From NCBI RefSeq assembly GCF_007713735.2, contig NZ_VMNW02000013.1:62001-126000 (forward strand): a stretch of 64,000 nt of DNA, in the 5' to 3' direction. How positions within the stretch are numbered: position 1 is the first letter of the stretch; every line of letters starts with the position of its first letter. Made by a program: the position numbers and the translations under genes. This stretch comes from Amycolatopsis acidicola (GTDB taxonomy: Bacteria > Actinomycetota > Actinomycetes > Mycobacteriales > Pseudonocardiaceae). Positions 7,937 through 18,792 of this stretch are shown here, piece by piece. Below the pieces are notes generated by a model. The model saw only the letters and a list, made by a program, of their open reading frames with translations, made no database searches and was not told where the DNA came from.

Positions 7937-7976
7937 GTGTCCCATGGTGGTACGCGGACGGGTACGCTGCACGGTT

Positions 7977-8072
7977 GCCACGGGAGTCCGGTACCTGACC
8001 GGGCTGAGAGGCGGGCCGAAGAGCCCGCGACCGTTCGCACCTGATCCGGATAATGCCGGCGCAGGGAGGCCA
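7977..8072 (+). promoter_or_regulatory. TPP riboswitch (THI element) upstream of thiB
   Basis: Both signature parts of the thiamine pyrophosphate aptamer are present: GGGCTGAGAGG (8004-8014) and, after a GC hairpin (GCGGGC...GCCCGC), the block ACCTGATCCGGATAATGCC ending in the GCAGGGAGG closing strand near 8070. It lies about 40 bp before the thiB start. The expression platform is probably translational: CCTCT at 8079-8083 can pair with the GGAGG of the ribosome site at 8103-8107. Binding of TPP would then reduce synthesis of the transporter. Confidence 0.95.
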
Positions 8073-8110
8073 CTCGATCCTCTCCTGCCCGGTGCGCGGC
8101 GAGGAGGGCC

Positions 8111-15549: not shown

Positions 15550-16871
15550 TCTCACGCTGGCCGATGTGGCTGCGGATCACCGTGCCCGCGGCCGTAGTCA
15601 CCCTGGCCGTCCTGCTCGGTCTCGCGGTGATCGCCGGGCGCGGGCTGGGGCCGTTGCGGTTACACGCGGTCGACACCGAACTGGGGCACGCGCTCGGGCC
15701 CGCTTCCGCCGCGGTGTCGGCGGGGCAGCTGCCGGCGCCGGTCGACGGCCTCACGGTGCGGGTGCTGGACACCACGGGCGCGCCGGTCGACGGTGCCCCG
15801 CCGATCGCGGATCTCACGCCCGGCGTGGTGCGCGCCCTGAAAGCCGGGGAATCGATCAACACGGGCGACCCGGCCTCGCAACGCTGGCGCGCCGCGGTGG
15901 TGACGGCGCCGGACGGGCAGATGCGGCTCGTGGTGGCGGGCACCGGGCTCGTCGGGCTGACCGCGTCGGCGCGCACGGGCTCGCACTGGCTGCTGGCGGC
16001 CGCGTCGATCGGCGTGATCGTGGCCGCTGCCGCGACGTGGCTCGTGGTGCGGCTCGCCCTGCGCCCGGTCGGCCGGATGCGGCGTTCGGTGCGCGCGCTG
16101 CCGCCGGGACAACGCCTGCCGATTCCCGAGGCACACGACGAACTTCGCGCGCTGGCCGAGGATTTCAACGCACTGCTGGCCAGACAGGAGGAGGCGAGCC
16201 TGCGGTTGCGCCGGTTCACCGGCGATGCCGCGCACGAGCTCCGCTCACCGGTCGCGTCCATCCGGGTGCAGGCCGAGGTCGCCGTGGCGAATCCGGATCC
16301 GGAGCTGGCACAGGAAACTCTCGCCGACGTCCTCGCGGAGTCCGAGCGCCTGTCCACGTTGCTGGACAGCCTGCTCGCGCTCGCCCGGTCCGATGCGGGC
16401 GAACTGCCCCCGGCCGAGCCCGTCGAACTGGTCACCGAAGCGCGCGCCGCGGTGCACCGGCTCCCGGCCGGTTCGCCGACGGCGCGGGTGAGCGGATCCG
16501 GCGGCCAGGTCTGGGCGCACGCCGCGCATTCCGAAGTCGAACTGGTGCTGAACAACCTGCTGCGCAACGCCTGCCGGTACGCGCGCTCGCAGATCGTGGT
16601 GTCCGTGCTGGCCGGGCGCGCGATGGTCCGGCTGGTCGTGGACGACGACGGGCCCGGGGTCCCGCCGGAGCACCGCGAGCGCGTCTTCGACCGGTTCTAC
16701 CGGGTCGCCGACGACCGGTCACGCTCCTCCGGCGGCACCGGGCTCGGGCTCGCGATGGTCGCCGAAGCCGTGCGGCGGCGCGGGGGCCGGGTCACCGTCG
16801 GAGAGTCACCCGAAGGCGGTGCCCGCTTCCAGGTGACCTGGCGCCGGGCCGGTAACGTCTCCGCTTCGTGA
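15546..16871 (+). CDS. Two-component sensor histidine kinase
   Basis: Membrane sensor kinase of 441 residues paired with the preceding regulator. A first membrane helix lies at about residues 9-30 and a second at about 150-172, enclosing an extracellular sensor region of some 115 residues. A HAMP linker follows, then the HisKA motif FTGDAAHELRSPVASIRVQAE with the phospho-accepting His, and an ATPase domain with the N box (LVLNNLLRNACRYA), DDDGPGVP and GGTGLGLAMV. The start is GTG 15546, overlapping the regulator stop (GTGA). Its own stop overlaps the Nudix gene in the same way. The signal sensed is unknown. Confidence 0.92.
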   Translation: MISRWPMWLRITVPAAVVTLAVLLGLAVIAGRGLGPLRLHAVDTELGHALGPASAAVSAGQLPAPVDGLTVRVLDTTGAPVDGAPPIADLTPGVVRALKAGESINTGDPASQRWRAAVVTAPDGQMRLVVAGTGLVGLTASARTGSHWLLAAASIGVIVAAAATWLVVRLALRPVGRMRRSVRALPPGQRLPIPEAHDELRALAEDFNALLARQEEASLRLRRFTGDAAHELRSPVASIRVQAEVAVANPDPELAQETLADVLAESERLSTLLDSLLALARSDAGELPPAEPVELVTEARAAVHRLPAGSPTARVSGSGGQVWAHAAHSEVELVLNNLLRNACRYARSQIVVSVLAGRAMVRLVVDDDGPGVPPEHRERVFDRFYRVADDRSRSSGGTGLGLAMVAEAVRRRGGRVTVGESPEGGARFQVTWRRAGNVSAS

Positions 16872-17272
16872 GAGTGATCGTCGGAGCTGCCATCGTGCGG
16901 GGTGGCGCCCTGCTCGCCCAGCAACGGGCCTACCCCGCCGAGGTCGCGGGGCGGTGGGAGCTGCCGGGCGGTCGCGTGGAAGCCGGCGAATCCGAGCCCG
17001 AGGCGTTGCGCCGGGAATGCGTCGAGGAGCTGGGCGTCGAGGTGCACGTCGGCGCCAGGGTCGGCGCCGACGTGCAGTTGCGGCCCGGCCTCGTGCTCCG
17101 TGCCTACGCCGCCACGCTGGCGGATCTCGCCGCGGAGCCGAAAGCCTTGGAACACAAGGGGCTCCGCTGGATCGATCCGTCCACTTTGGATGATCTGCCG
17201 TGGCTGCCCGCCGATCTCGAACTGCTGCCCGCGCTGCGCGAGCTGCTGGAAGGCGTCACGAAGCCCCGATGA
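16868..17272 (+). CDS. Nudix hydrolase, MutT-like
   Basis: 134-residue Nudix protein probably acting on oxidised (8-oxo) or damaged nucleoside triphosphates. The Nudix box is complete at about residues 37-59: GGRVEAGESEPEALRRECVEELG. The short length and simple one-domain layout match MutT-type 8-oxo-dGTP diphosphatases, although other substrates are possible. The GTG start overlaps the histidine kinase stop, so it is translationally coupled to the two-component genes despite having no obvious functional tie. Its 3' end overlaps the convergent trpS gene by 17 bp. Confidence 0.88.
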   Translation: MRVIVGAAIVRGGALLAQQRAYPAEVAGRWELPGGRVEAGESEPEALRRECVEELGVEVHVGARVGADVQLRPGLVLRAYAATLADLAAEPKALEHKGLRWIDPSTLDDLPWLPADLELLPALRELLEGVTKPR

Positions 17273-18218
17273 GCCGCAGCGCCGACGAAAGCCGGTGCTC
17301 GCCTCGTTCGGCCGCTCGCGCCGCGCCCGCTTTGCGGATGCGTGCGAGCTCCCCGGGATCGGAGAGCAGCTCGATCGTGCGCTCCCGGATCGGCCGCAGC
17401 GTCTCGATCACCGCGTCCGCCGTGGCGTCCTTCAGCCGTCCATACGATGAATACCGGGTGGCCACTTCCTTCGGCGTGGTCCCGGTGCAGGCGGCCAGGA
17501 TCTCCAGCAGGTTCGACACCCCTGGCCGTGTTTCCGGCTCGTAGGCCGGCACCGTTTCGCCGTCGGTGACCGCCTTGCGGAACTTGCGGCGGATCAGGTC
17601 CGGCTCGTCGAGCACGAACACCACCCCGGCGGAGTCCCGTGTGGACTTCGACATCTTGCGGGTGGGGTCCGCGAGGTCGCGCACCCGCGCACCGGTGAGC
17701 GGCAGCACGGCCTCGGGCACGGTGAACACCTCGCCGTAGGTGGCGTTGAACCGCCGCGCGAGCGCCCTGGCCAGTTCGACGTGCTGGCGCTGGTCTTCCC
17801 CGACCGGTACCTCGGAAGCGCCCTGCAACAGGATGTCCGCCGCCATCAGCACCGGGTACGTCAGCAGGCTCAGCCGCACGCCTGCCTGGCCGTCCGCCTT
17901 CTCCTTGAACTGGATCATCCGCGCGGCCTCGCCGTAGGAGCAGGTGCATTCGAGGATCCAGGTCAGTGCCCCGAGCTCGCGGGCGAGGTCGGACTGCACG
18001 AAGACCCGCTCGGGCGGGATCCCGGCGGCGACGAGCACGGCCAGCATCTCGGCTGCGCGGCCGCGCAGGCCGGCCGGGTTGTGCGTGGTGGTCATCGCGT
18101 GCAGGTCGGCGATGAAGTACAGGTCCTCCTCGCCACCGTCGGCGACCCAGCGGCTGACCGCGCCGAGGTGGTTGCCGAGCTGGGTGTGGCCGGACGGGGT
18201 GATTCCGGAGAACTTCAT
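17256..18218 (-). CDS. trpS: Tryptophan--tRNA ligase
   Basis: Class I synthetase of 320 residues that charges tRNA-Trp. It shows the HIGH-equivalent block PSGHTQLGNHLGA near residue 8, the substrate-site segment YFIADLHAMTTTH, RMIQFKEK, the adenylate region VPVGEDQRQHVELAR and KMSKS in RKMSKSTRD near residue 193. The ATG at 18218 has GAGGGA about 6 bp upstream; the frame is open to 18335 but that part is leader. A 19-residue leader ORF with two adjacent Trp codons and an attenuator-like terminator precede it. In Streptomyces coelicolor an auxiliary, indolmycin-resistant TrpRS is controlled this way; whether this copy is auxiliary or the only one cannot be told from the window. Confidence 0.96.
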   Translation of the reverse strand: MKFSGITPSGHTQLGNHLGAVSRWVADGGEEDLYFIADLHAMTTTHNPAGLRGRAAEMLAVLVAAGIPPERVFVQSDLARELGALTWILECTCSYGEAARMIQFKEKADGQAGVRLSLLTYPVLMAADILLQGASEVPVGEDQRQHVELARALARRFNATYGEVFTVPEAVLPLTGARVRDLADPTRKMSKSTRDSAGVVFVLDEPDLIRRKFRKAVTDGETVPAYEPETRPGVSNLLEILAACTGTTPKEVATRYSSYGRLKDATADAVIETLRPIRERTIELLSDPGELARIRKAGAARAAERGEHRLSSALRLIGAS

Positions 18219-18258
18219 GATCTTTCCCTCGGGGTTCTCGCCACCCGCGGGAAACGAC

Positions 18259-18330
18259 GAAGGCCGCCACGCGGGCGGCCTTCGGACACTGGAATTCAGC
18301 GCACGGGAACGACGGCCGCCGGGGGCGGCC
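18259..18330 (-). promoter_or_regulatory. Probable tryptophan attenuator of trpS (alternative hairpins)
   Basis: Read on the minus strand, arm 1 (18330-18324, GGCCGCC) pairs with arm 2 (18320-18314, GGCGGCC) across a 3-nt loop. Arm 3 (18283-18274, GAAGGCCGCC) pairs with arm 4 (18268-18259, GGCGGCCTTC) as a 10-bp terminator stem followed by a weak T-rich tail. Arm 2 is also exactly complementary to the GGCCGCC within arm 3, forming an antiterminator. The Trp codons of the leader overlap arm 1, so a ribosome stalled for lack of Trp-tRNA would free arm 2 and prevent termination. Confidence 0.75.
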
Positions 18331-18355
18331 ACCACAGTCCCGCGAAGCTGCGCAT
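18296..18355 (-). CDS. Trp-rich leader peptide of trpS
   Basis: A 19-residue ORF reading MRSFAGLWWPPPAAVVPVR, with ATG at 18355 and stop at 18296, 77 bp upstream of the trpS start. It has a good ribosome site, AAGGTGG, 4 bp before the ATG. The two adjacent Trp codons (18334-18329) are the expected sensor of charged tRNA-Trp. Trp is the rarest amino acid, so two in a row by chance in a 19-residue ORF directly before trpS is unlikely. It fits a ribosome-mediated attenuation leader rather than a T-box, which would lack such a peptide. Confidence 0.8.
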   Translation of the reverse strand: MRSFAGLWWPPPAAVVPVR

Positions 18356-18486
18356 GGGTCCACCTTAGCCGGAGCGAGAACCTCGCCGCACCCCTCTTTA
18401 CCTGGGCTTTGCCGAGGTGACGAACCAGCTACGGCACGCCGCGGTTAACAGCTGTCACGGGCGCCGCGCGGGGTTACCGTCGAGGT

Positions 18487-18792
18487 ATGTACGTCGTCCT
18501 GCTCACTTACACCGCGCCATTGGAAGAAGTCGATCTCGCGCTGCCGGACCACGCGAAGTGGCTCGAAAAGCATTTCCAGGCGGGGGAGTTCCTCGCCGCC
18601 GGACGCCGGAACCCGCGGAACGGGGGCGTGATCATCACGCGCCCGATGGCGCGCGGGAAGCTGGACGCCATCCTCGCCACCGATCCGTTCTCGGTCGGGC
18701 ACCTCGCTTCCTACGAGGTGGTCGAGTTCGCCGCGACGCGGACCGCGCCGGAGGTGCGTCTGCTCAACGAGGCGATCGCGCAGAGCGCCTGA
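18487..18792 (+). CDS. YciI family protein
   Basis: Small cytosolic protein of 101 residues with the YCII ferredoxin-like fold. It starts MYVVLLTYTAPLEEVD, has DHAKWLEKHFQAGEFLAAGRRNP with the conserved His and Asp of the family, and the later segment LATDPFSVGHLASYEVVEF. Some relatives are dehalogenase- or lactonase-like enzymes, but for most the activity is unknown. The ATG at 18487 follows a ribosome site GTCGAGGT. It stands alone, divergent from trpS. Confidence 0.85.
   Translation: MYVVLLTYTAPLEEVDLALPDHAKWLEKHFQAGEFLAAGRRNPRNGGVIITRPMARGKLDAILATDPFSVGHLASYEVVEFAATRTAPEVRLLNEAIAQSA

Follow-up and report, generated by a model that had tools for sequence, protein, structure and literature searches.

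The attenuator of the Escherichia coli trp operon follows the 1:2, 2:3, 3:4 logic with tandem Trp codons. Trp attenuators in Actinobacteria are said to be the subject of a study by Korolev et al. in 2015, and TrpRS1 of Streptomyces coelicolor has reportedly been the object of attenuation experiments (Kitabatake 2002; Vecchione & Sello 2009). For trpS2 of Streptomyces avermitilis such an attenuator was predicted by Seliverstov et al. in 2005 (PMC1262725). The trpL2 leader of Streptomyces lividans was published as MMTRTCTQLWRAA and, together with trpL1 of the same organism, was reported to be leaderless (PMC8079986). Leaderless leader ORFs were also reported for ilvB of Corynebacterium diphtheriae (PMC5784534) and for trpL of Sinorhizobium meliloti (PMC7298713); leaderlessness of leader ORFs as such is already known.

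The locus described here belongs to a stretch of 64,000 nucleotides (the window) from a genome of 9.47 Mb in 195 contigs, and the best named matches of its tryptophanyl-tRNA synthetase (TrpRS) are from Amycolatopsis. Judged from its sequence, the region before trpS is very probably a ribosome-mediated Trp-codon transcription attenuator that is carried on a leaderless transcript and controls an auxiliary TrpRS. The mechanism is already described for Streptomyces trpS and is not a new one. As in the Streptomyces trpS attenuators, a Trp-codon leader and hairpins precede an auxiliary trpS whose product falls in the same TrpRS clade; the S. lividans leader was reported leaderless (PMC8079986), and that of the window is predicted to be so. 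The leader peptides differ (MRSFAGLWWPPP... in the window versus MMTRTCTQLWRAA in S. lividans), and the Streptomyces leaders in our data, MTRTCTQLWWAA and similar, resemble the published trpL2 leader. At position 9 (Bacillus stearothermophilus, Bst, numbering) the window enzyme has Thr, whereas the Streptomyces copies of the tree have mostly Lys. S. lividans has Trp leaders on both trpE and trpS, whereas no leader on trpE was found in the genome of the window.

The actinobacterial trpE attenuators (S. lividans trpL1, the Corynebacterium trp operon) resemble the window element in having WW or WWW in the leader and a very similar RNA structure, and the model built on trpS leaders also retrieves leaders of anthranilate-synthase-like genes; however, they control biosynthesis, whereas the window element would control a synthetase. 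With the E. coli trp attenuator the 1:2, 2:3, 3:4 logic and the tandem Trp codons are common, but the window leader, being probably leaderless, has no room for a Shine-Dalgarno (SD) sequence, and an outer clamp that reaches from close to the start codon as far as the stop lengthens its helix 1:2. In S. meliloti the trpL ORF also begins at the first base of the transcript, which was measured there and is inferred here; trpL controls trpE(G) in that alphaproteobacterium, whereas the window leader precedes trpS (PMC7298713). The literature covered, from which subscription papers largely fell out of scope, contained no report of the system in Pseudonocardiales, Amycolatopsis included, and mentioned neither the clamp nor the SD hairpin.

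The leader region before trpS

The leader ORF, Trp codons, stems and trpS all lie on the minus strand. Reading in the direction of transcription, the following features were assigned:

18362..18367, minus strand: TAAGGT, probable -10 box of the promoter for the leader transcript, from its fixed spacing across leaders
18355-18296, minus strand: leader ORF of 19 codons and a stop, MRSFAGLWWPPPAAVVPVR, from orthologous leaders; probably the very 5' end of the transcript
18334-18329, minus strand: tandem regulatory Trp codons TGG TGG
18324..18334, minus strand: arm 1, core GGCCGCC (18330-18324), overlapping the Trp codons; helix 1:2 paired in 87.1% of cells of alignment A2 (see below)
18310..18320, minus strand: arm 2, core GGCGGCC (18320-18314); 2:3 pairing in 98.0% of cells
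18274..18284, minus strand: arm 3, 5' side of the terminator; its GGCCGCC (18280-18274) also pairs with arm 2
18258..18268, minus strand: arm 4, 3' side of the terminator; 3:4 of at least 6 bp in 120/120 leaders
18250..18257, minus strand: short, weakly U-rich tail UCGUUUCC after the terminator, from the sequence
18225..18230, minus strand: probable SD sequence of trpS, GAGGGA, from the sequence
17256..18218, minus strand: auxiliary trpS, tryptophan--tRNA ligase of 320 aa, start at 18218

The trpS product matched NCBIfam TIGR00233 with 246.4 bits (cut-off 176.75) and also Pfam PF00579. A preliminary description had proposed a 19-codon leader ORF with two adjacent Trp codons 77 bp before trpS; the coordinates were confirmed from the sequence, with 77 nt between the leader stop and the trpS start. 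The 3' end of trpS (17256-17272) overlaps a convergent NUDIX gene (16868-17272, plus strand) by 17 bases. A search of the whole window with Rfam families, including the proteobacterial Trp leader, returned at gathering score only a TPP riboswitch elsewhere (7970-8084, plus strand; 68.2 bits, gathering score 54.3).

Stem 1:2 has a 7-bp core, GGCCGCC/GGCGGCC (18330-18324 with 18320-18314), which extends to 10-11 bp, and, as in a classical Trp attenuator, the Trp codons of the short ORF overlap arm 1. Stem 3:4 comprises 11 bp (18284-18274 with 18268-18258; -22.6 kcal/mol, 0/200 shuffles as good), and the 7-bp antiterminator 2:3 is formed by GGCGGCC (18320-18314) and GGCCGCC (18280-18274). Since arm 2 is complementary to both arm 1 and arm 3, 2:3 and the terminator 3:4 are mutually exclusive, again as in the classical case. 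These are the three stems drawn earlier (7-bp 1:2, terminator 3:4 and a 7-bp 2:3 excluding the terminator), and folds and orthologue conservation agree with them. The leader ORF folds as a single long hairpin of -34.9 kcal/mol (1/200 shuffles as good), and the region 18375-18219 outfolds 196/200 dinucleotide shuffles. A mean of 4.7 T was counted in the 12 nt after the terminator (120 leaders); the window tail is a weak U-run, so the efficiency of termination is uncertain.

The start of the transcript was approached through the spacing of TANNNT, which ends 6-8 nt before an in-frame leader start codon in 112/112 distinct leaders (6 nt in 50, 7 nt in 58 and 8 nt in 4). Shuffled upstream stretches reached a mean of 5.9 and a maximum of 12 of 112, and shifted windows 1-19. 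This spacing is that expected for transcription from the start codon, which argues for the leaderless reading: the leader mRNA probably starts at its own start codon, as was reported for S. lividans trpL1 and trpL2. The AAGGTGG formerly taken for a good ribosome site overlaps TAAGGT (18367-18362), and in view of the 112/112 spacing the hexamer most likely serves a leaderless transcript as its -10 box and is not an SD site.

Conservation and covariation in orthologous leaders

A Trp leader was found in 120/169 trpS loci read (TGGTGG in 108, TGGCGG in 10 and TGGCAG in 2, so that the second Trp codon is absent in 12/120); the 120 leaders represent 112 distinct TrpRS and 112 distinct upstream stretches, and the 169 loci include same-genome repeats from two collections. 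No such leader was present in the 30 housekeeping-type trpS copies among these loci, nor in 19 other trpS loci, most of them not from close actinomycete relatives. One locus counted without a WW leader, L056 (Acidothermales), shows by eye a single-Trp leader, VRTTNGTCWFAR. Outside the Trp codons the peptide sequence differs widely between genera, and the conserved parts are the cis RNA arms.

Alignment A2 contained 50 of 51 chosen representatives; L125 was left out, its terminator having been mis-placed by the script. In stems 1:2 and 3:4 together 91.5% of cells are paired, against 29-64% when the arms are slid, and helix 3:4 is the better paired of the two (94.9%). Double-change cells number 30 versus 12.5 in shuffles (0/500), all at the base of 3:4 and none in helix 1:2; sliding by +2 and by +3 yields 23 and 24 of them, respectively, and the number of pairs with double changes shows no excess (3 vs 2.2 shuffled, 106/500). 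All four arms hardly vary. The 2:3 pairing, at 98.0% of cells against 19-58% when slid, is nearly invariant, so that shuffles score equally (97.8%); this is conservation and not proof by covariation. Near-invariance of this kind would be expected, because arm 2 has to stay complementary to both arm 1 and arm 3 and the former is coding as well. When perfect stems of at least 6 bp, the only ones accepted by the stem finder, were counted in the 120 leaders, 3:4 was found in 120, 1:2 in 103 and 2:3 in 96; a perfect 1:2 fell below 6 bp in 17/120 and an ungapped 2:3 match in 24/120.

The preliminary description had proposed to look in the orthologues for conserved WW codons and covarying stems. Codons and stems are conserved, and double changes occur at the base of 3:4, whereas covariation failed to appear in 1:2, which has no double change, and in 2:3, which equals its shuffles. 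The adverse case that it had named, orthologous leaders lacking both the tandem Trp codons and the stems, was not found in the orthologues examined.

Two covarying features lie beyond 1:2, 2:3 and 3:4:

18338..18350, minus strand: 5' side of the outer clamp (CAGC 18350-18347, CGCGGGA 18344-18338), near the predicted 5' end
18297..18308, minus strand: 3' side of the outer clamp (TCCCGTG 18308-18302, GCTG 18300-18297), overlapping the leader stop
18220..18258, minus strand: hairpin covering most of the trpS SD (UUUCCC 18254-18249 with GGGAAA 18228-18223), from the fold and a swap test

For the clamp, the segment between the predicted start and the Trp codons was paired with the 28 nt after arm 2, either its own or that of another leader. 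In 59 dissimilar leaders the native pairing averaged -15.6 kcal/mol versus -12.5 for swapped partners (0/10000 permutations, z -9.3), and z was -9.5 for 65 leaders with 30 nt of upstream sequence included. Clamp sequences vary by lineage, and the preference for the native partner therefore represents covariation. Because many leaders have similar clamps, the native partner ranked first in only 6 cases of the 65-leader test, and within the top tenth in 20. The partner-swap test took over from a weaker one, the longest single helix against simple shuffles, in which the 0.05 level was reached by 21/79 leaders.

The SD hairpin of the window has -17.6 kcal/mol, with 6/200 shuffles as good. In 82 representatives the segment from terminator to trpS start pairs with its own SD region at -20.0 kcal/mol versus -17.4 when swapped (0/10000, z -7.5), and of the first 70 of these, 67 have a recognisable SD, which is mostly paired in 58. 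The same swap test gave no SD-hairpin signal in 16 housekeeping trpS regions (z -0.1). A GGGYGGY motif precedes the trpS SD in 44/73 distinct sequences, compared with 4.2 in shuffled and 0/30 in housekeeping ones; in the window it reads GGGTGGC (18246-18240, minus strand).

The auxiliary synthetase and the distribution of the element

Two TrpRS genes were found in the genome. The second lies on another contig, is 45% identical to that of the window and of the GIQPTADSFHLGNYLGA type, and no Trp leader was found upstream; as with the attenuated auxiliary trpS of Streptomyces, an unattenuated TrpRS is thus present besides the attenuated one. The preliminary description had left the trpS copy number open, and the count of two in the full genome makes the window copy auxiliary. 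An attenuated sole trpS, sought in 200 family and 158 class genomes (this genome being in both), is ruled out here by the second copy. All 19 genomes searched in the genus, including this one, have two trpS copies, and in the family 110/200 genomes have a window-type copy (E up to 1.6e-93), 109 of these 110 with at least two TrpRS. In the exception (G157; C146, L148), a 94% complete assembly of 280 contigs, the housekeeping query found only the auxiliary attenuated trpS; the other genomes of its genus in the family search have two TrpRS each, and a gap in the assembly probably accounts for the lone trpS.

A quick tree of 114 TrpRS has a branch (SH-aLRT 93, short of the 95 mark) that sets 78 attenuated copies and L056 apart; these 79 rows form a clade only if the root lies outside, and as 8 of the 78 attenuated rows came via the leader model, the unselected association is 70/71. 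With the same rooting proviso the window enzyme falls together with the Streptomyces auxiliary enzymes. The members are from Pseudonocardiales, Streptomyces, Streptosporangiales and Micromonosporales, and a Trp leader precedes nearly every one sampled. Three further attenuated enzymes found via the leader model (L223, L235, L245) match TIGR00233 and represent a distant TrpRS type outside the clade. They have 34-38% identity to the window TrpRS, and the same RNA model finds before them leaders with WW or WWW, which places the switch on at least two TrpRS lineages. The motif GDRPTGPLHxGHY occurs in the TrpRS of L235 and L245.

The gene order typA - YCII - trpS - NUDIX was followed in 51 named loci (L003-L053) with at most 3 kb of flank per locus: typA was seen in 32, YCII in 27 and NUDIX in 31, all within L003-L035. 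Within this group the conserved locus favours vertical descent in a core position over recent acquisition as part of an antibiotic cluster. For many of the Streptomyces loci the contig ends close to the auxiliary trpS, suggestive of an rrn operon next to it; rRNA was seen in one of 12 Streptomyces loci scanned, L040, whose contig opens (1-381) in the 5' portion of a 16S rRNA gene that diverges from the auxiliary trpS about 0.9 kb away.

At Bst position 9 housekeeping TrpRS have Gln in 30/30, whereas attenuated TrpRS are non-Gln in 125/134 (Thr 94, Lys 25, Arg 5, Ala 1; Gln 9), these 134 comprising the 120 leaders (TGG followed by TGG, CGG or CAG) and 14 TrpRS from the leader model, with related sequences counted at full weight. 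The 19 other TrpRS without a WW leader have Gln in 13, Lys in 5 and Ala in 1. H43 is retained in 131/134 attenuated enzymes, and Q147 and D132 in all. The catalytic-domain His that had been noted as retained in the window enzyme is Bst His43, and it is indeed kept; the Thr in place of Gln9 had gone unmentioned. Lys9 is reportedly linked to the indolmycin resistance of auxiliary TrpRS. In a docking study of E. coli TrpRS, indolmycin contacts Gln11 through its oxazolinone N and His45 through its exocyclic N-H (PMC6450493), residues which, by their places, should correspond to Bst Gln9 and His43; H43N gives resistance (PMC4899734), and resistance to indolmycin is described for the auxiliary TrpRS of S. 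griseus and S. coelicolor (PMC6804068, PMC9437257, PMC3937824). The replacement of Gln9 fits an inhibitor-tolerant enzyme and does not show it; antibiotic resistance or a backup in Trp starvation are candidate roles of the spare TrpRS.

A covariance model of 50 leaders, the window's included, which raises its own score, gave 58.1 bits at the window element and at most 27.2 bits elsewhere in the genome, so that for a second attenuator only these weak matches were found. Of these, the two inspected (L171, L172) look like chance matches by their ORFs and unrelated surroundings. The single anthranilate-synthase match of the genome (PF04715) has no WW leader, and the longer ORF that runs upstream of it contains one Trp. 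In this genome the spare synthetase thus appears to be the only gene under Trp attenuation of this type.

The class search gave 87 matches in 65/158 genomes at E up to 1e-4, of which 69 were read as loci besides the window element. Among the matches classified, one precedes trpS in 22 genomes, some cases being placed by adjacency, and all 22 have at least two TrpRS. Many other matches precede anthranilate-synthase-like genes, judged by eye except for five proteins tested: two of them, L214 and L238, score above the curated cut-off for component I of anthranilate synthase, and L187, L200 and L204 match the superfamily below cut-offs. The L200 leader, MFAHSTQNWWWTAHPAAH, is one residue from the published S. 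lividans trpL1. In some class loci (L188, L194, L199, L206, L208, L209) the leader reading was anchored wrongly, and in one class genome with an auxiliary-like copy the upstream bases read N. Several of the weaker matches, among them L212, L221, L225, L230, L231, L243, L244 and L249, precede no recognised trpS or anthranilate-synthase-like gene and may be chance.

Proposed mechanism and alternative readings

The conserved Trp codons, terminator and 2:3 pairing support the earlier suggestion of classical attenuation logic on a synthetase gene. Transcription would begin at the leader start codon, and a ribosome would load on the 5'-terminal AUG. Where Trp-tRNA suffices, this ribosome would reach the stop codon and cover arm 2, the terminator 3:4 would form and trpS would not be transcribed. 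When charged tRNA-Trp is scarce, by Trp starvation or by inhibition of the housekeeping TrpRS, the ribosome would stall on the two Trp codons and cover arm 1, leaving arm 2 to pair with arm 3 and RNA polymerase to read into trpS. In the absence of ribosome loading, the 5' part of the leader would be closed by the extended 1:2 clamp, with termination as the default. The hairpin over the trpS SD probably holds basal translation low.

Control might instead be mainly translational, with the SD hairpin as the switch and the GC-rich 3:4 an inefficient terminator, or termination Rho-dependent. The covariation of this hairpin, missing from the housekeeping regions, its coverage of the SD in most representatives and the weak U-run of the window are in favour, and the published account of S. 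lividans trpL2 describes two hairpins and no U-rich stretch (PMC8079986). Yet 3:4 is better paired in the alignment than 1:2, 2:3 excludes it, and an unsystematic look noticed no partner that would free the SD in dependence on the leader ribosome, which makes this reading unlikely. Trans action of the leader peptide or of an attenuated small RNA, like S. meliloti peTrpL, with cis-control of trpS secondary, is very improbable: the small leader RNA is predicted to be leaderless, as in S. meliloti (PMC7298713), but it is the cis arms that are conserved and the peptide that varies between genera.

For a T-box or another riboswitch before trpS the enriched GGGYGGY motif could be adduced. Placed before the SD, it presumably resembles part of the T-box sequence, but it continues as GGNACC in only 3/73, no Rfam T-box was matched at gathering score, nor at E up to 10 in 18100-18500, and the leader ORF occupies the 5' end and leaves no room for a stem I; such control is scarcely credible. 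That the stems and a WW micro-ORF arose by accident in a GC-rich actinobacterial intergenic region is of negligible probability, for although GC-rich arms form easily, and 1:2, 3:4 and 2:3 of at least 6 bp occur at some offset in 4/28 housekeeping trpS upstreams when no Trp ORF is required, the element is conserved over the auxiliary clade with fixed promoter spacing, clamp covariation and a single outstanding match in its own genome.

Beyond the attenuator itself, it is tempting to speculate, as something quite possible if slightly short of probable, that an ancestral two-tier switch belongs to one actinobacterial auxiliary TrpRS clade. A clamped leaderless 5' end would be opened by ribosome loading on the terminal AUG, transcription would be gated by stalling on the Trp codons and translation of the read-through message by the SD hairpin, and the enzyme with altered active-site Gln9 would serve as a conserved backup whenever the housekeeping TrpRS is inhibited or Trp runs short.

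The data extend a mechanism described for a few Streptomyces to the whole auxiliary-synthetase clade, and the clamp and the SD hairpin are separately testable additions to the textbook attenuator. A simple rule follows for any actinobacterial genome, in which a leaderless Trp-codon leader marks the spare trpS and its absence the housekeeping one. The coupling of the switch to an altered Gln9 can be used in sequence data to mark enzymes that are candidates for tolerating tryptophan-analogue antibiotics.
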